From: Chloroflexota bacterium
GTDB lineage: Bacteria; Chloroflexota; Dehalococcoidia; Bin125
Length of the DNA: 64,000 bases
Reading direction: 5' to 3'
NCBI GenBank assembly: GCA_028873865.1
Contig: JAPPNI010000016.1
Location: 19,193 to 83,192 of the forward strand
Shown: one piece after another, positions 48,330 through 59,588 of the stretch
Layout of the letters: each line of letters begins with the position of its first letter
How positions within the stretch are numbered: position 1 is the first letter of the stretch
Program-made: the position numbers and the translations under genes
The notes under the pieces: model-generated
Database searches by the model: none
What the model saw: only the letters and a program-made list of their open reading frames with translations
Told to the model about the DNA's origin: nothing

Positions 48330-49079
48330 TTACTCTTCTGCCTCCGTGCAAAACTCTCGCGGAATCTGGAGAGTAATGATCCGCTGACCGTCGATCCCCA
48401 ATGCTCCATCAGGTTCTCCCGGGGTGCCCTGAACCCATTCGACTAACACAGGTTCAACCTTCGAGCGTTGCTGAGACCATCCATTGCTTCCCCAGAGACC
48501 CCAACAACTGCGGCCCACGAGCGCCGAAACGTAGAAGATGTAGCGATGACTGTGCATGCTCGCACGAAACACAGTCTGACCGTCCTCGTTGGCGAACCCG
48601 CCGAATCCACTCTTTCTTGGCGTCACGTCAGGGTCGGCCTGGATAACGCCATCTGCCGCCGGGTTGCCCTCTGGATCGAGCACGATCCCGTGGATGAGCG
48701 GGTAGCCATCCGGGGACCAGAGGATTTCGTCTGCCCGGGAGAGTTTCCAATCCTCGAACCGCTCGTAGAAGTCAGATGCCGTAACACCGAAGACCTGATC
48801 GAAGACGATTTCCCATGGCTTCGTAGATGAATCACTCGTTGCTTCGCTCTGGTAATGCGCGCCAAGCACGCGCCAATATTCGAAGAGAGAGTCGGGATCA
48901 GTCATCTCTTCCAGCAGGTGAGCAGCATCGAGACCCAGCCAATAGATGTGAGGGTTTCTTCCTTCATACGGATAATCGGGGCGATCTTCAACGCTCGACA
49001 GGGTCGGCGTCTTGCTGCTGTATTCGAGCTGTCGTCTCCAGGAGCTGCTCAGCCAGGTTGTTTCATCGGCCAAGATTTT
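48330..49079 (-). pseudogene. C-terminal half of an interrupted secreted peptidase gene
   Basis: About 247 codons continuing the frame of the N-terminal half at 55004-55977 once the transposon is removed. It includes GLDAAHLLEEMTD and a FGVTASDFYERFEDW segment comparable with FGLTLEEFYDEFEAL in the 866-residue paralogue, then a carboxypeptidase-regulatory-like beta domain (IHGIVLDPEGNPAADGVI). It has no start codon or signal peptide of its own; the apparent start at 49103 lies inside the transposon end. Confidence 0.85.
49072..49079. repeat. Left 8-bp target-site duplication (AAGATTTT)
   Basis: AAGATTTT directly abuts the left end of the transposon and is repeated exactly at 55004-55011. Eight-base duplication is the known hallmark of IS1595-family insertion. 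Confidence 0.92.
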
Positions 49080-49101
49080 GGGAATTATCACCTTGAGTAA
49101 C
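49080..49101 (+). repeat. Left terminal inverted repeat of the transposon
   Basis: Begins GGGAATTATCACCTTGAG and matches the reverse complement of 54982-55003 at 21 of 22 positions; the difference is T versus G at position 14. Confidence 0.92.
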
Positions 49102-49103
49102 AA

Positions 49104-49457
49104 TCAAGCGTCGTCGATCTTCGCTACGAAGTCGTGCATCTCCTTACACGCGGCATCGCGATCGAATTTCTCACGAGCCTCAATAGAGTCATTCTGGCGT
49201 TTCAAGGCATCGTAGGTAGCCTCAAGCGCGAGCTTAGCGCTGGACTTGAACGCAGTGGCATTCTCAGGCCGGACGCCATCATCAGTGATTCCGCCCTCGT
49301 CAACGACTACGGCATATGGCTCGTTTGGCCTAGACGGATCGACCGCCACCCTACCCCGCAGGGTGCCCAACCAAACATCGACGTAGCACCCCTTGGGGTC
49401 TTCGATCAGATAACCTACACCCTGGTACGTGACCTTCTTCCTTTGTTCCTCAGCCAT
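49104..49457 (-). CDS. Transposon passenger: hypothetical protein, 117 aa
   Basis: A small acidic protein: N-terminal half beta-rich (VTYQGVGYLIEDPKGCYVDVWLG, shown here by its first and last parts: VTYQGVGYLI and VDVWLG), then VDPSRPNEPYAVVVDEGG, and a helical C-terminus with a Cys (ACKEMHDFVAKID). No family recognised. It is the last gene of a minus-strand run of four small genes; its ATG lies inside the end of the preceding small gene (8-nt overlap). Its stop lies just inside the left transposon end. Confidence 0.6.
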   Translation of the reverse strand: MAEEQRKKVTYQGVGYLIEDPKGCYVDVWLGTLRGRVAVDPSRPNEPYAVVVDEGGITDDGVRPENATAFKSSAKLALEATYDALKRQNDSIEAREKFDRDAACKEMHDFVAKIDDA

Positions 49458-49602
49458 CCTTCCTCTCCTCCTTCAGGTACTTCCACTCGTCCTTGCGCTT
49501 GGGCTTGGTGTTGAACAGAGCCTTGGCGACGTTCTCCGGGCTGTCGTCCACTGGCTCCGGAATTGGCTTGGGTGGGCGGCCGAGCTTCGGCTTGTCAGCC
49601 AT
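49450..49602 (-). CDS. Transposon passenger: 50-residue proline/lysine-rich protein
   Basis: A short ORF beginning MADKPKLGRPPKPIPEPVDD and continuing SPENVAKALFNTKPKRKDEW, with a Lys/Glu-rich end. AGGAGG lies 4 nt before the ATG at 49602 (a second ATG is directly before). Basic, proline-rich N-terminus followed by a short amphipathic helix suggests a nucleic-acid or protein-binding peptide. I recall similar P-E-N-V-A-K/R-A-L peptides beside transposases, but this is memory, not a search result. It overlaps the downstream gene. Confidence 0.55.
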   Translation of the reverse strand: MADKPKLGRPPKPIPEPVDDSPENVAKALFNTKPKRKDEWKYLKEERKDG

Positions 49603-49663
49603 CATTCCTCCTATATTGCTATGTTGGCATTATACAAGGATACTCACCTGGAGCCGGCGGTGA

Positions 49664-49801
49664 CTACCGCCCGTAGATGCCCAGCGAGCGCTCGATCCGG
49701 GCGCATTTCTCGTCGACCATCACCACCCGGTTGGTGACCTGTCCGAGGTGCTTGTTGGTCTCGTCGAGGTTGCGGAGGACGTGGGCGATCCGGCGTGTCA
49801 G
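49664..49801 (-). CDS. Transposon passenger: 45-residue coiled-coil-like peptide with probable CTG start
   Basis: Codons from CTG 49801 to TAG 49664 have strongly G/C-ending third positions and read TRRIAHVLRNLDETNKHL, GQVTNRVVMVDEKCARIERS, LGIYGR, a helical peptide. No ATG or GTG precedes it in frame, but the CTG overlaps the TGA of the membrane-protein gene upstream as CTGA, like the common ATGA coupling. A competing frame from 49853 is Pro/Arg-rich and unlikely. Function unknown; probably co-translated with the membrane protein. Confidence 0.45.
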   Translation of the reverse strand: MTRRIAHVLRNLDETNKHLGQVTNRVVMVDEKCARIERSLGIYGR

Positions 49802-50142
49802 GCGCTGCGGTTGCGGTCCACCAATTCTCGCAATAGGGACTCGATTCGATCAAGCTGCGACGGACCCGCCTCTGGTTCCGGCTCTACCAGTGGTTCCGGC
49901 TCTTTGGGTCCCAGCCAGTAGAGGAAGTAGAGGACTGCTGCGACGCCCAGGACAATAGGAACAGCGATCAGCGCTTCATGCACGGCGTGCCCCTCGTGAT
50001 ACTCCCGGGCTGCGACATGGCCGAGATGGGTAGCCACGAACACCAGCGCGAATGGCGCTGCCCTGACGATCTTGTCTCCGAACGGCGTGTGGTCCCTGAT
50101 CGCGCCCCAGATTCGAGTGATGATGCGTTCAAGGATTGGCAA
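49798..50142 (-). CDS. Transposon passenger: small membrane protein, 114 aa
   Basis: An N-terminal amphipathic part (LPILERIITRIWGAIRD), two hydrophobic helices (APFALVFVATHLGHVAA and ALIAVPIVLGVAAVLYFLYWL), then an acidic Pro/Glu linker (PKEPEPLVEPEPEAGPSQLD) and a short helix ending DRNRSA. This resembles holin-like or bitopic/polytopic small proteins but no family is recognised. The start is TTG 50142, supported by GGAG 8 nt upstream. First gene of the minus-strand run 50142-49104. Confidence 0.55.
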   Translation of the reverse strand: MPILERIITRIWGAIRDHTPFGDKIVRAAPFALVFVATHLGHVAAREYHEGHAVHEALIAVPIVLGVAAVLYFLYWLGPKEPEPLVEPEPEAGPSQLDRIESLLRELVDRNRSA

Positions 50143-50198
50143 GCGAACATCTCCGACCAGCCTCTCGTGATATGGTCACGACAGGCAGATACCTAGAT

Positions 50199-50236
50199 TC
50201 AGCGGCCCTCAAAGCGGATCAGGCTGGGGCCGCTGA
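50199..50236. repeat. Inverted repeat in the divergent region
   Basis: A perfect 10-bp stem (TCAGCGGCCC / GGGCCGCTGA) with an 18-nt loop. Could be an operator or a hairpin in either leader. Confidence 0.45.
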
Positions 50237-50292
50237 GTCAATTCTATGGGATTTTCATCGGCCTATCGGATGGCGCCCAAGATGTGTGACGG

Positions 50293-50320
50293 CCCTGCTC
50301 CGGCAGGGTCGTTTTCGTTC
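50293..50320 (+). terminator. Terminator-like hairpin upstream of the secreted-protein gene
   Basis: CCCTGC-TCCG-GCAGGG followed by a T-rich stretch (TCGTTTTCGTT). No plus-strand gene lies immediately upstream within the element, so it may act as an attenuator or block read-through. Confidence 0.45.
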
Positions 50321-50463
50321 TGTCATACTGCCCGCGCCAGCCAACCGGACTTGTCTGGGACCCGCCGATAAAGGCAGCGGTTCCATGCTCCCTCCGTGGC
50401 GTTCCAGCGGGTCATCGGTTGGCTGGCACTGGCCGTTTGCCTCGTGTCAGGGAGGGAGCCACC

Positions 50464-51588
50464 GTGACGAGCCCGCACCGAGGGGCCGTCGTCGCAATCG
50501 TCGTTCTCGCGTTCGTCTGTTCCGTCGCCGGTCTCGCCGTCTCTCAGTCCACGACCACCCACACAGCCCAAGTCCGCATCAACGCCCGTCAGTTAGACGA
50601 CGGGCGGGTGGAGTTCGCCCTGCAGCAGCGGGACGGAGCCTCATGGGGAGACCGGCTTCTCCTGCCTGGTCGCTTCCTCGCGGCCAACGTCGGCCATGAC
50701 CGCTGGGTTTCGACTCGCGCCTACACCGTCTCCATCGAGGTACCAGTGGCTCAGGTCGAAGAAGACCTGATGGAGGATGAGCCGGCGACCGCGCAGAGCA
50801 CATCCGCTGGCCCAGCGTGGCAGCTCACCGACCCGACCACGCTGCCCCTGGTGGCGCTGACCGCTGCGCGCAGCATCTCCACCCACTCAACCGACTCCGG
50901 CTATCACGTGATCGCCGCCAGGGGGCACGGCTCGAACGACGCCGGCGCCCCCGTGACCACCACCAACCACTATGCGTGTCAGCCTGGCTCCGGCTCGCTG
51001 CTGCACTGGCATAACGAACACGGCTGGGGAGAGGTCCACCACCCTGACCGCGGCATCTCCCCGCTGACCTTGCTGACCATCCAATCCCTGCACGAGCGGG
51101 TCTGGTCGGAGTTCAGTCAGGCTCTCGTTACCTGCGGGGTGACCCTGGCATCTCCGGCTCAGGCCCAACAGCCGGTCCAGGTTGTCCCCCAGGTGACTCA
51201 CCCGTATGAGATCTGGGGGTCGGCCTCGAACCCAAGCTGGAATCGGGCGCAACTGCTGGTGCGCTGCCCCGACAACGTCCGCGACTGGTACCTGCAGGTG
51301 CAAGTCTTCGACACGATCCACCATCCCCTCGGCGATTACCTGTTGCCGCAGGAGTTCTCGCTGGCGCTTGAGGACACGTTCGAGCTGGTTCACTCGGAGG
51401 TCGGCGGTCACCAGTGGCACGTCGACTTGCACCGGGTGTTCGCTTCAGGACTCGACGCGAAGTACTTCTGGGAGCAGGCGCTGGCTGAGGGCGAGTTCAC
51501 GATGGTCTTGCCGGCAGTGCATGGCGGGCCGAACACCGTCACCATCGGACTCACCCCGTATCCGGGCGAACACCGACCCTGTGGGTAG
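50464..51588 (+). CDS. Transposon passenger: secreted/anchored protein with CAP-like His/Trp motifs, unknown family
   Basis: A 374-residue protein. An N-terminal hydrophobic helix (GAVVAIVVLAFVCSVAGLAV) is followed by a beta segment DGRVEFALQQRDGASWGDRL, a second similar segment near residue 120, and middle and C-terminal stretches rich in His and Trp (LLHWHNEHGWGEVHH, WHVDLHRVF). The start is GTG 50464 with AGGGAG 5 nt upstream. Two segments with DGR(V/I)EFALQ-type sequence are common in exported proteins I cannot name. It appears exported or membrane-anchored; function unknown. Confidence 0.6.
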   Translation: MTSPHRGAVVAIVVLAFVCSVAGLAVSQSTTTHTAQVRINARQLDDGRVEFALQQRDGASWGDRLLLPGRFLAANVGHDRWVSTRAYTVSIEVPVAQVEEDLMEDEPATAQSTSAGPAWQLTDPTTLPLVALTAARSISTHSTDSGYHVIAARGHGSNDAGAPVTTTNHYACQPGSGSLLHWHNEHGWGEVHHPDRGISPLTLLTIQSLHERVWSEFSQALVTCGVTLASPAQAQQPVQVVPQVTHPYEIWGSASNPSWNRAQLLVRCPDNVRDWYLQVQVFDTIHHPLGDYLLPQEFSLALEDTFELVHSEVGGHQWHVDLHRVFASGLDAKYFWEQALAEGEFTMVLPAVHGGPNTVTIGLTPYPGEHRPCG

Positions 51589-51651
51589 AGCCTGGGCCTA
51601 CTCTGAGCGCTCGGCTCGGCCCGATGCCGAGCAAGCGAGAAAGGTGTTCAG

Positions 51652-51948
51652 ATGGCAGAATCAGATCGACCCTACACCGTAATCGGGAGTACGGATGGCA
51701 TCACACTGGGTGTTGGAGAGGCTAGATTCTTGACTTGGCGCGACCAAGAAGCGAAGCGAGTAGTTCTAATCTTCGACGAAGTGCCCCGATCTGTCGTCTC
51801 CACCAGCCTCGACGCACAGGGTGCTCTGACAATTCAGTTGGCCGTTTCACGACGATCACTCGCCTCGCTCTCGGAGGCAATTGCGAATGAGGCGAACTAC
51901 GCTGACTCTGCTGGGTGGCCAAAGGATCTGGAGACGGCTGAACAGTAG
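51652..51948 (+). CDS. Transposon passenger: hypothetical protein, 98 aa
   Basis: A small soluble protein with a beta-rich body (YTVIGSTDGITLGVGEARFL, VVLIFDEVPRSVV, LTIQLAVSRRSLASLSEAI) and helical end. GAAAGG precedes the ATG. It follows the secreted-protein gene by 63 bp. A later passenger (54721-54930) has a similar short plan, strands then a helix with SL(E/T)I(R/Q)L, so the two may be related, but identity is low. Confidence 0.55.
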   Translation: MAESDRPYTVIGSTDGITLGVGEARFLTWRDQEAKRVVLIFDEVPRSVVSTSLDAQGALTIQLAVSRRSLASLSEAIANEANYADSAGWPKDLETAEQ

Positions 51949-51967
51949 ACATCAGGACCCTCCTACT

Positions 51968-52144
51968 CTACTCATCCGCGGAGGCTTCGTCCTCGGGCAA
52001 GACTTCTCCTCCGAGGACTTCCAGGGCGGTGCCCCCGCTGCCCTCTACTTCATCTTGTCTAACACGTAGACGGGATTTGGAAGGCTCCGGGATCGCCATG
52101 CCCTTGGGGAACATTTGCAGTGGATAGTAGTCTTCAGTCGTCAC
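51968..52144 (-). CDS. Transposon passenger: 58-residue acidic protein, leaderless GTG start
   Basis: An ORF from GTG 52144 to TAG 51968: VTTEDYYPLQMFPKGMAIPE, then PSKSRLRVRQDEVEG and an acidic end (GGEVLPEDEASADE). A TACACT box lies exactly 6 nt before the GTG, the same arrangement as leaderless genes elsewhere in the window. Codon use looks coding. No homology recognised; it could be a small antitoxin- or regulator-like protein, but this is speculation. Confidence 0.45.
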   Translation of the reverse strand: MTTEDYYPLQMFPKGMAIPEPSKSRLRVRQDEVEGSGGTALEVLGGEVLPEDEASADE

Positions 52145-52150
52145 GGGTAC

Positions 52151-52156
52151 AGTGTA
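52151..52156 (-). promoter_or_regulatory. -10 box of a probable leaderless promoter (TACACT)
   Basis: TACACT on the minus strand ends 6 nt before the GTG at 52144 inside the transposon. Confidence 0.4.
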
Positions 52157-52193
52157 TCGTGCAAGATAGTACTTTGCATACGCTCGGATTCGA

Positions 52194-53411
52194 TCACCCG
52201 CTTCCCTCGTTCCTCACCCAGCGTTCCGTCTCTAGTGGGAGTGGCTGAAGGAATCTACCCAGTTCGTCATCTTCCTCGTACTGATCGTTGTACCGCTCTT
52301 CTACGACCGAGCCGACGTTCACCAAGAAGTAGTCTCTGTGGTCATTCAACACTCGCCAGCTCTCCCAATGTTCGTGCTGTCCTGAATGTGGCCAGGCGAG
52401 CACCTTCCACACCATCACAACCTCCACTATGAACAACACTCCTGACAAAGCCAGGGCCCACAGCGGCGCACCAGCAGCGAGAAGCGGTATCCAATAGCCG
52501 AGGCCGGCGATCAAGATACCAGCGCTGTGGAGCCACGCCTTCAACGCTCTCTTCGCCTCCAGATAGAGCTTCCACACCTGCTTGTAGTTGAACTCTCCGT
52601 ACAGCGCGTCAACCAGGGCTCCCTTCTCCACCACAAGCTCATCCGGGCCCACTCCCCACGCCTTCCTGAACCAGAACTCAAAGTAGAAATCATCTGGCGA
52701 GCGCCGCACCTGCCATACATCAGATAGCGAGACGCGGGGTCCGTCCCAGCGCTCGCCGAAGAGAGCGATCTTGACTGCTGAGGGATCGCACTTCTCGCAA
52801 TGAACCGGCATCTCGCACGGCTTGTCTAAGTCGACCTCGACCCTGTCCCGTACCCACCACGCCTCACCACCGGGAAACTTGCTGTGGTCGGTGCTATATT
52901 TGTGGCCAGCATCAAGCCGATACCCTACCCTCTGTTCGCTCCCCCCGACTGCCACGAGGTAGTAGATGACGTTGACTTTCCCGTGTGTGTCATCCGCGCA
53001 CTCCGTTGCCGAGATGACAGTCTCTCCGTACCGCTTGTACACGCAGGCTATGCACACACGGTCGGTCTTCGACTTGGCACGGCCGCATTTCGCGCAAGAC
53101 TCCCGCTCCTCCGCGCAAAGGTCAGCAAGTGTGCGGTAGTCGGGAATTGATGAGGATGGCCACGTTGTGGTGCCAACGCCCGGAACGAACACTCTCAGTA
53201 CCTTCGCGCAGATTCCCCTACACAGTGCGCGCACCCGTGCAAAGGTGGTCGGAACTTCCCGCGGAGGGCTTGCCGAGTCGCCACCGGACCAGATGATCGA
53301 ATTGAGCGCCAGAATCGTTCGCTTGGTCGGTCCCGCCGAATATCTGGACTCCAGGTTCATCAACCATCCATCCAGCAGCTTGAACAATTTGGACATGGTC
53401 TTGCTCACCAT
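52194..53411 (-). CDS. Transposon passenger: zinc-ribbon membrane protein coupled to the transposase
   Basis: A 405-residue protein of unknown family. After MVSKTMSKLFKLLDGWLMNL come two cysteine clusters that look like zinc knuckles (CAEERESCAKCGR..CIAC near residue 105-125 and CEMPVHCEKC near residue 205), a central beta-rich domain with Trp/Phe (FYFEFWFRKAWG), and two adjoining membrane helices near residues 300-345 (AGILIAGLGYWIPLLAAGAP, LWALALSGVLFIVEVVMVW) followed by a charged C-terminal tail. The ATG at 53411 overlaps the transposase stop (ATGGTGA), so it is translationally coupled to it. Third codon positions look less GC-rich than neighbours, suggesting foreign origin. Confidence 0.65.
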   Translation of the reverse strand: MVSKTMSKLFKLLDGWLMNLESRYSAGPTKRTILALNSIIWSGGDSASPPREVPTTFARVRALCRGICAKVLRVFVPGVGTTTWPSSSIPDYRTLADLCAEERESCAKCGRAKSKTDRVCIACVYKRYGETVISATECADDTHGKVNVIYYLVAVGGSEQRVGYRLDAGHKYSTDHSKFPGGEAWWVRDRVEVDLDKPCEMPVHCEKCDPSAVKIALFGERWDGPRVSLSDVWQVRRSPDDFYFEFWFRKAWGVGPDELVVEKGALVDALYGEFNYKQVWKLYLEAKRALKAWLHSAGILIAGLGYWIPLLAAGAPLWALALSGVLFIVEVVMVWKVLAWPHSGQHEHWESWRVLNDHRDYFLVNVGSVVEERYNDQYEEDDELGRFLQPLPLETERWVRNEGSG

Positions 53412-54360
53412 TGAAGCTCCATCTGACCCAGCGGAATCGGCTCTGGCAGGTCCGTAGTCAACTCTGCGTACTCGAGCACTCGGCCATCCATGGCTCTCGT
53501 AATCAGTTCCATCCGCTCCACGGTGCTGAGGCCGAGATGGTTGTGGCGCCAGACGCACTCGTCGACGTACCGGTGTAGGTGCTTCCGGCTCCACCAGTGG
53601 TTCGTGCCGTGGTAGACCCGCTTCACCTCGGCCCAGAAGGACTCGATCGCGTTCGTTGACACCCCATCGCGCGCCCACTCTCGCCGCGAATGCGCGACTG
53701 TCTCCAGCGGACGACGGACAGCGTTGTAGCTGGGCGACTCATCCGCGTAGACTTGGGTGCCCGGCTCGGTGTGGCGATGGACGAACGGCACCAGCTCCTC
53801 CATCGTCGCCGCCTTGACCGGCTTGGCGTAGACTTGGCCAGTCTCGCGCTCGACGATGCCGACAACTGGAAACTTCTCCGGCTTGCTCTCTCGCGGTCCC
53901 GGTGCATGTTCTTGTACTTGCCGCCGATGAAGGTCTCGTCGACCTCGACCTCTCCGGAGAACGTCGGTGGATCCTGCTCGTCGTAGCACTCCCGGATCCG
54001 GTGGGCGAGATGCCATGCTGTTTTCTGGGACACGCCGAGCATGATGTGCAACTGCGGCGAGGACCACCCCTTGACCTGTTGCGCGAACATCATGATCGCC
54101 AGAAGCCAGGTGTGGTAGCCCAGCTTGGAGTTCTGCATCACCATGCCCGTGCGGACGCTGAAGAACTTCCGGCACCCTCGGCAACGGAACGGCATCGTTG
54201 GATGGGTGGTGCCGATCTGAACGTCATCATGGTCGCAGTGCGGGCAGATCGGGCCGTCTGGCCATCGGTTGTCGATGAACCAGCGCTCCGCAGCAGCATC
54301 ATCCGGGAACCGTCGGTAGAACTCGGGGATTGACAAGCTGTGCTTGTCTCGGGCAGTCAT
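53405..54360 (-). pseudogene. IS1595-family transposase with a frameshift
   Basis: About 318 codons in two frames. The first frame (from ATG 54360) has the N-terminal zinc ribbon (CPHCDHDD, FRCRGCRKFFSV) and the first catalytic aspartate in GEVEVDETFIGGKYKN. The second frame supplies the second aspartate (YADESPSYNAV), the TNAIESFWAEVKR segment and the remaining catalytic residues (YVDECVWRHNHLG). The frames meet at a GAGAGAG run (53885-53892); the change is -1, which a 1-nt loss or 2-nt gain there would produce. IS1595 transposases normally use one frame, so this copy may be inactive, or the break is a read error. Confidence 0.85.
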
Positions 54361-54383
54361 CTCTTCACACTCGTTTCGGAACT

Positions 54384-54389
54384 ATTGTA
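54384..54389 (-). promoter_or_regulatory. -10 box of the transposase promoter (TACAAT)
   Basis: TACAAT on the minus strand, about 23 nt upstream of the transposase ATG; no good -35 is visible. Confidence 0.4.
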
Positions 54390-54495
54390 ACATTCGCGGG
54401 GCACTGGGCTCCCAGGACTGTTACTGTCCAGGTTGCGAGAAGGGATGACTTCTGCCACAATGCTTGTAGGGATTGCACTGTGGCTCTAAGCCATC

Positions 54496-54527
54496 GAACC
54501 CGCTTCCCGGGCTTGGGAAGTGGGTTC
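54496..54527. terminator. Strong hairpin upstream of the transposase
   Basis: A 13-bp stem with one G-T wobble (GAACCCGCTTCCC / GGGAAGTGGGTTC) and loop GGGCTT. It may protect the transposase from outside read-through or end the plus-strand transcript. Confidence 0.5.
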
Positions 54528-54720
54528 TGCGTTTAAGCGCGGCGCATGATGGCTCTCGATTTCCATCAGTGCCCGCGCCGCCACCCTATCATCGGCTCTC
54601 GGAATTAATCCAGTCCCCAACCATTCCACCGCCTCTCCACTACCTCATCTACGCACCTCGACTGGAAATCTGAAACCCTCGATGATTCGGGGGCTAGCCA
54701 ACCGAGAGAGGTGCGGCCAA

Positions 54721-54930
54721 ATGACTGAGATCGAGTCTGTCGGCGAGAACGCGAGTGTCGAAGCAAAATGGAGTCAGGAACTCGGACGGATCGTCCTGAC
54801 CGCCTCGAACATCAGAATCAACGTCCCAGGGCCGGGCGTCATTCCTTCTTTGGAGATCCGACTGAACTCGACGGACGCTCTCCAGTTGATCGACGATCTG
54901 CGGCAGTCTCTATGTCACATGCCGGAATGA
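54721..54930 (+). CDS. Transposon passenger: hypothetical protein, 69 aa
   Basis: A short protein: acidic start (MTEIESVGENASVEAKW), three beta-strand-like stretches (RIVLTASNIRINVPG, LEIRLNSTDAL) and a C-terminal helix (LIDDLRQSLCHM). GAGGTG lies upstream of the ATG at 54721. It sits just inside the right end of the element, convergent with the interrupted peptidase half. Similar overall plan to the 98-residue passenger at 51652. Function unknown. Confidence 0.5.
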   Translation: MTEIESVGENASVEAKWSQELGRIVLTASNIRINVPGPGVIPSLEIRLNSTDALQLIDDLRQSLCHMPE

Positions 54931-54981
54931 ACTTGATCACGACAGTTGGTGTTGTTTTCGCTGTCACTTCTGAACTCCTTG

Positions 54982-55003
54982 GTTACTCACGGTGATAATT
55001 CCC
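54982..55003 (-). repeat. Right terminal inverted repeat of the transposon
   Basis: Reads GGGAATTATCACCGTGAG inward on the minus strand and matches the left end at 21 of 22 positions. Confidence 0.92.
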
Positions 55004-55011
55004 AAGATTTT
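55004..55011. repeat. Right 8-bp target-site duplication (AAGATTTT)
   Basis: Exact direct repeat of 49072-49079, immediately outside the right transposon end. Confidence 0.92.
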
Positions 55012-55977
55012 CCGGTGGGTCGTCATCCACGTTGCGACGCCCTCGACAAGCCAGGCCGGCTCGTCGAGGAGGGAGCGTTCTAGGAGCTGATACTGGAGGA
55101 TGTGCGCAAGCTCGTGCGTGTACACATCGCGGAAGAAGTCATGCGGCCTCCATGAGTTGCCCCACATATAGAGCGCACCGAGATCGACGACAACGTAATC
55201 CGGTCCGGCCCACGCCGAGAAGGGATGATACGAACCCAGACATTCCAAGTCACCTAGTACGTCATGCTCTGGCAACGCGTCGGCGAGCAATTCTTCACAT
55301 TCAAAATGGAGATACAGAGTCAAGTGCGCTTCAATCTCCAGGTCGAACTCCTGCCGATACCAGTCGATTGCGGCGAGCGCTTCAGTGACCGACGCGTTCT
55401 TGTTCGCAGTCGACGCCGCCCCGGTGGCGATGAGATCGAGCGGGATTCCAGCAACTTGGTTCCATTCAATGGCATGTGGCGTGTTTACCCAGATCGCATC
55501 AGCAAAATCCAGTCTCGTGACTCCTTCAGGCGCCACGATGTCAGCGTCTTCGAGATCGAGACTCGACCTTGCCTCTCTGAGCGACACACCGTCGGCGCCA
55601 GACCAGGCAATGAGATTCCAGCCCGGCTCCAGAAACAAGATCGGAGCGGGACGATCATCGGGTCGCACCCACTCCACGGTCTCATCGCCGGCGATACGGA
55701 TGACAATGCCCATTCCTGGGTCAATCTTGTACAGGTCGCCGCGAAGATGGGGTGATGAGAAGCGAAATTGTTTCGCTTCCCCATCCCAGCTGTAGACCAG
55801 TTGGGACTCGGGAAGGGCTTCGAACAGATCGTCTGCGTAGATCGGTTGTCCGACCCAGCCGACGAAGTTAATCCCTGGTTTCAGTACGGTCGTTAACTGA
55901 TGAGTTTCCGTAGCAAGACTGCGCGCTCCCGCCAGAAGGAGCAGGAGCGCGCAGGTGACGCCAAACAGGCGCATCAC
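55004..55977 (-). pseudogene. N-terminal half of an interrupted secreted gluzincin-like peptidase gene
   Basis: About 325 codons. A signal peptide (LFGVTCALLLLLAGARS) is followed by two copies of a PG-x-N-(F/L)-(V/I)-(G/A)-W-(V/S)-G module (KPGINFVGWVG and EPGWNLIAWSG), then a peptidase region with HELAHILQYQ (HExxH) and WLVEGVATW, whose Glu is the usual third zinc ligand. In its present state the frame runs into the transposon and stops at 54964 after 13 foreign codons. Joined to 48330-49079 it would give 571 residues. The uninterrupted relative is encoded at 56988-59588. Confidence 0.85.
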
Positions 55978-55993
55978 ACGACTATCTGAGCCT

Positions 55994-56935
55994 CTAACGG
56001 AACTCGGGGATCACCGTCTCCGCGAACATCTGGGCTGGCTCGATGGTGTCTCGGCCGAAGAATTCGATCATGAACATGTCGCAGCCGCGCTCCATGTGGC
56101 GGTTGATTCGCTCTTTGATCATGTCCGGGGTGCCGGTCAGGGCCATGTCGCCGGCGGGGTTGCCCATGTGACCGCCGAAGATCTTCTGTGCCCGCTCGAC
56201 CATCGGCTGGACCTTGGCGTCGTCGTCGACGATGGTGACCAGGCACTGCTGCGAGACGCGGATTTCCGAGGGGTCGCGGCCGAGGCGCTCGGCGTGGCCG
56301 CGGAGGACCGAGACCTTGTGCTCGAGGTCGTCCTGAGCGCCGGCCGAGTTGTTCCAGATGTCGGCGTACTGCGCGGCGATGCGCATGGTGACCTGCTCGC
56401 CGCCGCCGCCAACGAGGATCGGCATGTCGCGCGGAGGCTTGGGCTGGGTGACGAGGTTCTCGGTGTGGAAGTACTCGCCCTCGAACGAGAACTCGTCCTG
56501 GTCGGGGTCGAACATGCCCTTGAAGATCTGCAGACCCTCTTCGAGCTGGCGCAGACGGTCGCGGGTGCTGACGAAGGGCATGCCGAAGTCGGAGAACTCG
56601 CGGGCCATCCAGCCGGAGCCGAAGCCGGGGATGACGCGTCCGCCGGCGATGTTGTCGACGGTGGCGATCATCTTGCCGGTGTGGGCCGGGTTGCGCATGC
56701 CGACGGGCGTGACCAGCGTGCCGATTTCTGGCTTCTCGGTCACGGCGGCGATGCCTGCGGCCAGGGTCCAGGCCTCAAGCATGGGGATCGCGGGCGACTG
56801 CGGGCCGTAGAGATGGTCGTTGACCCAGAGCGAGTCGAAGCCCATCTCCTCAAAGGCCGAGGCGGCGCGCTGCGTCTCCTGCCAGGTGCGCTTGATCTGG
56901 GGAACCATGACGCCGAAGTGCGGGCTGTTGGTCAT
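55994..56935 (-). CDS. Luciferase-like (LLM) flavin-dependent oxidoreductase
   Basis: A 313-residue TIM-barrel flavin enzyme. Typical segments are GVMVPQIKRTWQETQ, GFDSLWVNDHLYGP, IGTLVTPVGMRNPAH, GRVIPGFGSGWMAREF, KPPRDMPILVGGGGEQV and a final CDMFMIEFFGRDTI. It would reduce or oxygenate a substrate with FMN or F420. The ATG at 56935 follows GAGAGGA; the long in-frame ORF upstream is a shadow of the peptidase gene. It lies between the two peptidase homologues on the same strand. Confidence 0.87.
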   Translation of the reverse strand: MTNSPHFGVMVPQIKRTWQETQRAASAFEEMGFDSLWVNDHLYGPQSPAIPMLEAWTLAAGIAAVTEKPEIGTLVTPVGMRNPAHTGKMIATVDNIAGGRVIPGFGSGWMAREFSDFGMPFVSTRDRLRQLEEGLQIFKGMFDPDQDEFSFEGEYFHTENLVTQPKPPRDMPILVGGGGEQVTMRIAAQYADIWNNSAGAQDDLEHKVSVLRGHAERLGRDPSEIRVSQQCLVTIVDDDAKVQPMVERAQKIFGGHMGNPAGDMALTGTPDMIKERINRHMERGCDMFMIEFFGRDTIEPAQMFAETVIPEFR

Positions 56936-56987
56936 TGGGGGGAGTCCTCTCGGGGAGATCGCGATTTGCGGGCAGGGTAGCGCAGGG

Positions 56988-59588
56988 TCAGTTGCAGACA
57001 GAGGCGGGATCCTGTGGCAGGCGGAACTCGATCCCCGTGATGTCGGAGCGGATGATGTTGAAGGAGCGGCGTTCGCTCTTGGCTCCGCTCTTGCCATTGC
57101 CGGCGTAGTGGATTTCGCAGTTGTCGATCGTGGCCCACATGTCGTAGACCCCCGGACCGGGAACCGTGAAGGAGAACGTCCCGTCGTCGGCGGGCCAATC
57201 ACCGCCTCTGCCGGATTCGCCGGAGGCGCCGACCCAGACGCCGTTCCTTGGAGTGCCGTCGGCGTTGAGGAGCTTGCCGGAGATGCGCAGCGTGCACATG
57301 CCTGGCTGGAGTTGGAACAGCAGCCCCGAGACATCGTGCTCCGACAGGTCGATGATCTCCCGTTCGTGCCATTTCCCAGTCGCGCCCTGAGCCCCGAGGT
57401 ACAGCAGGCATCCATCCAGCCATGAGTACACGTATAGTTGGCCTGCCTTCGTCAGCCCCGCCCGAAATCTACCCGTGGAATCGGTGCGAACTTCAACGCT
57501 CTGATCAACCGCAACGACATTGATCTGGGCGTCCTCGATGGCCTCGCCTTTGGAATCGAGTAACCATCCCGTGATTCTGGTGCACGGATCCTCTTCGGCC
57601 TGGAATCGAATGCCAGCGATGTCCCGGTTGACCACCTCGATGGTCCCGGCCCGCTCCTTGGTCCAGGTCGGAAGATCCGCGTTCCAATAGAGACGGCATC
57701 CACCCAGGTCGGCAGAGAGTTGGTAGGGGCCGGGCTCGGTCGCGACGAATGTGAAGGAGCCGTCGAGCTCGGTTCTGACCGCAGTCGAATTGCCTTTTCT
57801 CTGGACCCGGACTTCTATGCCGGCCAGCGGCTGATCATCCGGGCCGGCCAGCGCTCCGACGATCTGCCAGCGGCATTGATCGGCGTCCACCGTGATCGCG
57901 ATCGGCTCGGGTTGACTGTTGCCGATTTCGATCAGGCTGGCCTCGTCATCGGACGGCCGCGCCTCATCGCTGCTCTCCGACCACCAGAACTGGCAGTGCC
58001 AGTAGTCATCGCCGAGCTCGATCCAGACGCGGTAGTCGGCCCGTTTGCGGACGAAGAGTTCGAACGTCCCGTCTTCACTCGATCTCGCTCGACGATCCCA
58101 GCCAGCCGGATAGCCGTCCTGGTACTCCCTGGCCTCCAGAGAGGCTCCAACTCGCGGTGTGCCGTCGGTGTTGACGATTGTCCCTGCGAGCGCGAATTCG
58201 TTCCCTGCAGGTCGGCGTTTGGCGCTGCCGCGACGCTTGGTCATGAGCGCCTCGAACTCGTCGTAGAACTCTTCCAGGGTGAGTCCAAAGGCAGCCGCGA
58301 AGGCGCTGCGCATGGTGGGCCGCGTCTCCCAGCGGCCACCTGGCCCGGCTCTGCCCGGGGCCAGGACGCGATAGAAATCGAGCGCGGCGCTCTTGCCGGC
58401 GCGCTCGACCAGCAGATCGGCAGCGACCAGGCCGAACGAGTATTGCCAGGTCTCGTTGCTCGACTCAATCTCTTCAAGCGGCGGACCCTTCGAAGCCAGG
58501 TTGAGCGCGTTGATCAGCTTCCTGCTGAGCGGATAGCCGTTGCGATCCTGGGTCGAAAGATCACTGTCGAACCAGTTGGCGGAGCCTTCAAGCAGCCAGT
58601 TCAAATCAATGTAGTTGGCGCCCATAAGCTGATATTGCAGCGCATGAATGTATTCGTGCAGCACCACATAGCGACCCCAGTGGTAGCGCCCACTGCTGGA
58701 TCCCTCCCACGTGCTGCTCTTCAGGTAGAACGCATTCTGATCGCTGCTGTACCAACCACCAGCCCGTTGCCAGAAGTTCCGGAACGACTCCCATTCCCAT
58801 GGGTGGCCCAGTTCCGTCGTCTTGTCGTGCGCCGATTTCGCATCGCCGGCGACGACGACCACGAGCGAGGACGGGTCAGCCTGCACACCGAGTTCTCTGG
58901 CGCTGTACTCGAGCGTTGCGGCCAGATCGCGCTCAATCAGCCGGCGCACGCCGTGATCGACGCTGCCGGCGTAGTGAATCTCCGGGATGACGAAGGTCGG
59001 CTGCAGCCAGTTGACGTCGCGACTGACCCTGACTTCGAGCGCATCGCCCCGCCTGACCGCCGGCCAATCGTCCGCAGACTCGGGAGCGGCCGGAGCGTAG
59101 CGGTGATCACCAAGGCGAATCTCCAGCAGCGCACCGCCGATGCCCCGGGCGACATCCTCAATCGACCGGTCGTCAGGGCCCAACCACGCGACCCAGTTGA
59201 CGCCGGTGTGAAGCTCGACCGATCCGGCCGCAGGGACGATGGGGCGGATCCAGGTGGCTCGCGATTTTTCGCCGAGGCGAACGAGGTAGGCCGCGCCAGG
59301 CGTGATACGACGCAGGCTCCAGAGGCTGTTGGGCATCGCGGGCGCCGCCATCGACCAGCGGCTCCACCTCGCGTTCCAGCTGTAGACAGCCTCGATTTCC
59401 GGTATCTCTCCAAACAGCGCCGCAACAGAGACCGCCTCGCCCACCCAGCCGACAAAGTTATCGCCCGGCTGGAGCTCAACGGTACGTGTTTCAGGAGTCT
59501 CGTCTGCCAACGCCAGAGCCGGCAACGCCACCGCGAGTACGAGGACGAACACTGCAATCGCCAGGCCAACACGCCCATGCTTGATCAT
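56988..59588 (-). CDS. Secreted gluzincin-like peptidase with repeated beta domains
   Basis: An 866-residue exported protein. A signal peptide (IAVFVLVLAVALPALALA) is followed by two PG-x-N-x-V-x-W-x-G modules (QPGDNFVGWVG, HTGVNWVAWLG), a peptidase domain with HEYIHALQY (HExxH) near residue 317 and WLLEGSANW, then four carboxypeptidase-regulatory/Ig-like repeats from residue ~455 on (for example GTIVNTDGTPRVGASLEA, GALAGPDDQPLAGIEVRV, GWLLDSKGEAIEDAQINV, GKLLNADGTPRNGVWVGA). It probably acts outside the cell on proteins or surface polymers. A TAGGCT box 7 nt before the ATG suggests a leaderless start. Confidence 0.78.
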   Translation of the reverse strand: MIKHGRVGLAIAVFVLVLAVALPALALADETPETRTVELQPGDNFVGWVGEAVSVAALFGEIPEIEAVYSWNARWSRWSMAAPAMPNSLWSLRRITPGAAYLVRLGEKSRATWIRPIVPAAGSVELHTGVNWVAWLGPDDRSIEDVARGIGGALLEIRLGDHRYAPAAPESADDWPAVRRGDALEVRVSRDVNWLQPTFVIPEIHYAGSVDHGVRRLIERDLAATLEYSARELGVQADPSSLVVVVAGDAKSAHDKTTELGHPWEWESFRNFWQRAGGWYSSDQNAFYLKSSTWEGSSSGRYHWGRYVVLHEYIHALQYQLMGANYIDLNWLLEGSANWFDSDLSTQDRNGYPLSRKLINALNLASKGPPLEEIESSNETWQYSFGLVAADLLVERAGKSAALDFYRVLAPGRAGPGGRWETRPTMRSAFAAAFGLTLEEFYDEFEALMTKRRGSAKRRPAGNEFALAGTIVNTDGTPRVGASLEAREYQDGYPAGWDRRARSSEDGTFELFVRKRADYRVWIELGDDYWHCQFWWSESSDEARPSDDEASLIEIGNSQPEPIAITVDADQCRWQIVGALAGPDDQPLAGIEVRVQRKGNSTAVRTELDGSFTFVATEPGPYQLSADLGGCRLYWNADLPTWTKERAGTIEVVNRDIAGIRFQAEEDPCTRITGWLLDSKGEAIEDAQINVVAVDQSVEVRTDSTGRFRAGLTKAGQLYVYSWLDGCLLYLGAQGATGKWHEREIIDLSEHDVSGLLFQLQPGMCTLRISGKLLNADGTPRNGVWVGASGESGRGGDWPADDGTFSFTVPGPGVYDMWATIDNCEIHYAGNGKSGAKSERRSFNIIRSDITGIEFRLPQDPASVCN

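Follow-up and report, generated by a model that had tools for sequence, protein, structure and literature searches.

A passenger-carrying IS1595 element of the Dehalococcoidia, probably immobile, and its leader RNA with a putative Shine-Dalgarno pseudoknot

A segment of 5.9 kb with inverted ends lies in the 64,000-nucleotide stretch of Chloroflexota bacterium contig JAPPNI010000016.1 analyzed in this study (hereafter the window). It raises the question of what kind of mobile DNA it represents, and whether the genes between its ends belong together. We consider, with a probability of about 0.75, that it is a passenger-carrying IS1595 element (transporter IS), now probably immobile, with about seven passengers, one of which possesses a leader RNA predicted to form a pseudoknot with the Shine-Dalgarno (SD) sequence and to serve as a portable module. 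The features of the locus are collected in Table 1.

Table 1. Features of the element and of its insertion site, numbered from the first letter of the window.
Feature	Position	Strand	Remarks
Host gene split by the element, exported protein with HELAH motif	48330..55977	-	Halves 55977-55012 and 49079-48330
Left copy of 8-bp target duplication AAGATTTT	49072..49079	.	Exact repeat; single in G014 empty site
Left terminal inverted repeat	49080..49101	+	22 bp, 21/22 against right end
Passenger ORF, 117 aa, good SD	49104..49457	-	No homologue found
AT-hook-like peptide gene, 51 aa	49450..49605	-	Recurrent near IS1595 element ends
Passenger, 114-aa membrane protein, C-terminal coiled segment	49798..50142	-	Weak homologue in G014:C18
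Leader RNA, 124 nt	50336..50459	+	P1 arms 50336-50348 and 50415-50427, anti-SD 50387-50395, SD 50451-50459
Exported passenger, 374 aa, GTG start	50464..51588	+	N-terminal module common in host exported proteins
Passenger ORF, 98 aa	51652..51948	+	No homologue found
Passenger, 400-aa zinc-ribbon and membrane protein	52194..53396	-	Homologous fragment in G003
IS1595-family transposase, frameshift-split near 53886-53892	53405..54360	-	PF12760, PF12762, NF033547
Passenger ORF, 69 aa	54721..54930	+	No homologue found
Right terminal inverted repeat	54982..55003	-	22 bp, 21/22 against left end
Right copy of 8-bp target duplication AAGATTTT	55004..55011	.	Exact repeat

The preliminary description of the locus reported 22-bp inverted ends with 21 identical positions and an exact 8-bp flanking duplication, and both were borne out by comparison of the two ends of the element (49080-55003) and by the presence of AAGATTTT on either side. 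It also proposed looking for other copies of the ends and for empty sites in relatives. Scanning of the whole 2.8-Mb genome with up to 3 mismatches gave no further site for the ends (chance expectation from shuffles of the window, 0.00), which leaves the element single-copy, and an empty site is present in the congener G014. Excision of the element together with one repeat restores a 571-codon ORF on the minus strand, and this ORF aligns across the junction with the neighbouring paralogue. The same host gene runs without interruption in G014 (protein identity 86%), where the target sequence is single-copy (AGGATCTT) and the empty site matches the joined flanks with 88.5% DNA identity over 1,608 bp, gap-free at the junction. 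The restored ORF and the uninterrupted site make the junctions look genuine, and an assembly chimera does not account for them. Since G014 carries the uninterrupted site, the insertion is younger than the separation of this lineage from that congener species. An IS1595 DDE transposase would have moved the element into an exported-protease-like gene after this split. The interrupted gene and its neighbour (48330-49079, 55012-59588) are paralogues whose exported products share an HE.(A/I)H motif, and the genomes of the genus each hold several further relatives.

IS1595-type transposases were found in 84 of the 393 genomes of the class, the best being about 45% identical. Within surroundings of at most 20 kb, another 33 elements of 1.5-4.3 kb could be delimited by terminal inverted repeats (TIRs), mostly of the type GGG(G/A)ATTATATAC, and most of them possess exact 8-bp duplications; short inverted ends and an 8-bp duplication are thus features of the relatives as well as of the window's element. 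Three elements added later (L117, L210 and L221) and the window's own bring the total to 37. The passengers of the relatives include N4/N6 and C5 DNA methyltransferases, GIY-YIG-like proteins, a trypsin-like secreted protein and lipoproteins. Methyltransferase-like genes are frequent among them (L036-L039, L047, L062, L065, L066, L072 and L055), with Pfam confirmation only for L066 and L055. Given these varied passengers, passenger carriage is ordinary among IS1595 elements of the class, and the present element is mainly unusually large. Passenger-carrying members (tIS) are known in the IS1595 family according to Siguier, Gagnevin and Chandler 2009, as relayed in PMC7986276. The window's element shares with them the zinc-ribbon and DDE_Tnp_IS1595 domains, the 8-bp duplication, and short inverted ends starting with GGG with passengers in between. 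It differs by its length of 5.9 kb, exceeding the relatives delimited here, by a frameshifted transposase and by passengers without known function.

The exported passenger is preceded by a leader, absent from the preliminary description, in which the hairpin loop GCTCCCTCC is the exact complement of the SD region GGAGGGAGC, located four bases upstream of the GTG start. Non-coding DNA upstream of this gene is 70-77% conserved with two other elements and a locus in G014. The hairpin folding has a z score of -4.7 in the window's leader and -6.7 in L056. A mechanical scan for the architecture gave 13 matches in 13 of 35 elements compared with 2.6 expected from flanking DNA, and this comparison is conservative because, of the 15 hits in the flanks, two seem to be genuine themselves. 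The leader was found in 17 of 37 elements, a figure that comes from element-based discovery and is not the share of all leader copies, and it occurs at chromosomal sites too. Among 30 host genes with the same N-terminal module as the exported passenger, the leader was at first seen in five, four of them in IS1595 elements; later searches added two more module genes, G011:C5 and G014:C2:24k, at places not assigned to an element. Further upstream, the non-coding stretch 50139-50330 is about 70% conserved in G014:C18 and holds a G+C-rich inverted repeat (CAGCGGCCC/GGGGCCGCTG).

Pattern searches extended the set. Applied to 386 genomes, a pattern with just the degenerate cores of SD and anti-SD gave numerous sites, chance matches among them; those resembling the motif were taken further, together with those from a stricter pattern. 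Thirteen new sites found in this way combine a P1 stem of 11-22 bp with an SD that is immediately followed by an exported ORF; the criterion of 11 bp compares with a mean of 7.7 in shuffled sequences, 3.8% of which reach 11. L222 and L211 fall below this criterion, the former having a 9-bp stem and an exported ORF. Over 84,980 species, the stricter pattern was found at seven loci of Chloroflexi/Dehalococcoidia and one of Methylobacterium, the latter having neither an ORF nor a P1 stem of 11-22 bp. We further built a covariance model, R1, from P1 only, leaving the SD pairing out of the model. N-padded sequences were used for it because MAFFT alignment of the raw leaders misaligned the 5' arms. 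R1 found members outside its training (L119, L237, L238 and L246) with SD/anti-SD complementarity and exported ORFs, including new compensatory types at the innermost SD pair, A-U in L119 and U-A in L246.

In an alignment of 38 members, fitted to P1 and not to the SD helix, 95.8% of cells are paired, compared with 70.3% after shuffling and 45-52% after sliding. Compensatory double changes occur in 17 of the 20 pairs, covering all 11 of P1 and 6 of 9 in the SD helix. The cells of the SD helix are paired at 98.5%, a value to be read with the first 16 leaders having been partly picked for complementarity and part of the SD core having been set by the pattern. At the innermost SD pair, 18 of the 38 sequences have G-C and 17 have C-G. 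As judged from this alignment, base pairing between the leader loop and the SD is conserved, and it comes with the compensatory changes of a pseudoknot leader. Two further structures were tried and rejected. An extra switch helix between the 3' end of P1 and the bases before the SD is unsupported (59.5% paired compared with 55% shuffled), and a second pseudoknot before 54721 is weak, was missed by R1 and precedes a protein that is not exported.

The genes downstream have export in common. An export-like N-terminus with a hydrophobic segment was predicted in 29 of 32 downstream proteins compared with 10.8% of 501 background ORFs (P=3e-25, with members that are not independent). The three exceptions have a short non-exported ORF first after the SD and an exported ORF close behind, and no clear ORF directly follows the SD in L245, L247 and L249, which are copies outside elements. 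R1 matched 16 of 333 genomes, which belong to several families within the class. Of the 24 matches, 11 fall within IS1595 elements, which make up a very small fraction of these genomes. The genomes of the family hold 0-3 R1 copies each, and in this genome only the transposon's was found; these copy numbers are lower bounds, the search being limited by its first look. Two congeners carry similar leader copies (L213 8362-8490 in G006:C26 and L214 8706-8836 in G011:C5), both near tRNA genes, and neither a transposase nor element ends were found near them.

These features suggest the following course of events. The mRNA leader of the exported passenger would fold into a long hairpin, its loop would pair with the SD, and the resulting pseudoknot would block ribosome binding, so that opening of the pairing would permit synthesis of the exported protein. 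Such translational attenuation, with the pseudoknot holding down translation until opened, is what we infer from the conserved pairing. Because the leader is present in many elements and on chromosomes, we regard it as a portable unit that would control exported proteins and that passenger transposons may pick up and spread. Whether the leader constitutes a new family of pseudoknot regulators for the exported proteins of the class, sensing a feature shared by export or the envelope and not a metabolite, and spread by IS1595 elements together with their exported genes, we regard as evenly balanced.

The hairpin could instead act as DNA, in the manner of a REP or attC-like signal for recombination, transposition or replication, with its SD complementarity incidental. 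Its enrichment in transposons would fit, as would the frequency of long inverted repeats in mobile DNA. However, it keeps one orientation and one distance relative to the start codon, its second strand is invariably the SD, and the SD helix covaries. The export-like nature of the downstream genes, and the location of the hairpin away from element ends and also outside elements, likewise make a DNA signal unlikely. A classical metabolite riboswitch is slightly harder still to reconcile with the data. Riboswitches are known to use SD sequestration in a pseudoknot as an expression platform, and preQ1 and SAM-II riboswitches and ribosomal-protein leaders have a loop that pairs with the SD as a pseudoknot; the present leader resembles them in this pairing just upstream of the start codon. 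Unlike them, it lacks a conserved aptamer and has a long, unconserved P1 stem. The 38 members hold hardly any conserved sequence outside the SD/anti-SD core from which an aptamer could form, and no aptamer-like conserved columns were seen beyond it. P1 is not conserved in sequence among the leaders, and no ligand or protein site is therefore visible. Moreover, the downstream genes share export and not a pathway, are otherwise unrelated, and no family in the Rfam 15 covariance models matches the leader. With no conserved core, a metabolite aptamer is disfavoured, and the signals to which an RNA pseudoknot regulator might respond narrow to temperature, ions, a protein, a small RNA or co-transcriptional kinetics. 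Literature searches on pseudoknot leaders and on IS1595 in Chloroflexi returned nothing relevant; the leader is a well-supported RNA structure that is apparently undescribed.

The vehicle of this leader belongs to IS1595 by its transposase. The zinc ribbon PF12760 (E=5e-8, 33.2 bits, cut-off 25.4) and the DDE domain PF12762 (E=7e-30, 104 bits, cut-off 27) were both detected, and NF033547 matches in two pieces of 92.9 and 75.2 bits (cut-off 75). A single intact ORF was not found; the zinc-ribbon and catalytic halves occupy separate frames that meet at about 86/87 of the IS1595 profile. Alignment with 30 relatives, all in a single frame, maps the frame change to a variable loop with a GAGAGAG run near 53886-53892. 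The frameshift is due either to a mutation that inactivated the gene or to an indel introduced in assembly. The zinc-ribbon DDE transposase of the preliminary description is thus right, the frameshift having been missed; its complete IS1595-type transposon stands as an IS1595 element with passengers, and falls as to completeness in the functional sense. Membership by descent is not in doubt, and present activity is. No second IS1595 transposase was found in this genome, and because the only transposase gene is frameshifted in this assembly, the element is probably immobile now. Programmed -1 frameshifting, by which the transposase would be active and the element still mobile, is used by IS1, a relative, and the two frames do overlap. 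We rejected it as quite improbable, since the site has just the GAGAGAG run and no slippery heptamer, the 30 related transposases are all in one frame, and the genome lacks a second element copy.

As to the cargo, seven passengers (49104, 49450, 49798, 50464, 51652, 52194 and 54721) plus the transposase are credible, fewer than the at least nine genes counted earlier; the ORF at 51968-52144 has neither a ribosome-binding site nor a homologue. The N-terminal module of the exported passenger occurs at 4-29 places per genome in the genus and is also cargo of four other elements. A weak homologue of the 114-aa membrane passenger adjoins the exported-gene homologue in G014:C18. The only strong outside match among the 393 genomes, in G003, covers the final 198 codons of the 400-aa passenger. 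This chromosomal fragment, located at L083 8635-9228 (G003:C25), has a diverged N-terminal part, and its surroundings showed neither element ends nor an IS1595 transposase; with a dN/dS of 0.16 it is under purifying selection. Structure prediction from the single sequence of the 400-aa passenger gave a mean pLDDT of 41, too low to be of use, and no homologues were found in the PDB. Phage or defence functions of the cargo were rejected with no match in PHROGs or PADLOC, and neither the secreted passenger in plasmids nor the 400-aa passenger in phages had a match. The proposal that several genes of no known function between such ends are a co-adapted new mobile system is very improbable and was rejected, since the gene set is absent from every other element and genome among the 393 of the class, the concatenated passengers match elsewhere only that one fragment of one gene plus three weak partial matches (E 4e-4 to 5e-3), and passengers differ from element to element. 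Single parts do recur in other IS1595 elements, these being the AT-hook-like peptide and the module of leader RNA and exported gene.

Counting the window's own, 9 of 34 elements possess the gene for the AT-hook-like peptide with its GRPPKP core, and it is usually the outermost gene at one end. Of 23 strong class-wide matches, 16 are accompanied by an IS1595 transposase, intact or decayed. The loci are 49450-49605 of the window and L036, L039, L042, L046, L050, L051, L053, L055, L058 and L117. The peptide resembles AT-hook proteins (PF02178) in its GRP core with basic and proline flanks (KLGRPPKP, PRGRPIK, PVGRPRK), but differs from them by a conserved segment PEPI..(S/T)PE..A..VL.AKPK..WRY after the core. 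The best relative scored 16.2 bits against PF02178, below the gathering cut-off of 17.4, and the window's own 51-aa peptide had no Pfam hit for this family. Its position and motif suggest that it is probably an element-encoded accessory DNA-binding protein. No paper joining IS1595 with AT-hooks was found in the library searched; the peptide may represent an accessory protein of IS1595 elements that has gone unrecognised.

The transposon itself is a new, probably dead, member of the IS1595 family, and the leader is the part that deserves attention. That IS1595 passengers possess it suggests that genes can be carried by transposons together with their own translational control. A regulatory RNA that is defined by a covarying SD pseudoknot, lacks a conserved aptamer and lies almost exclusively in front of exported proteins would make this an unusual leader class.
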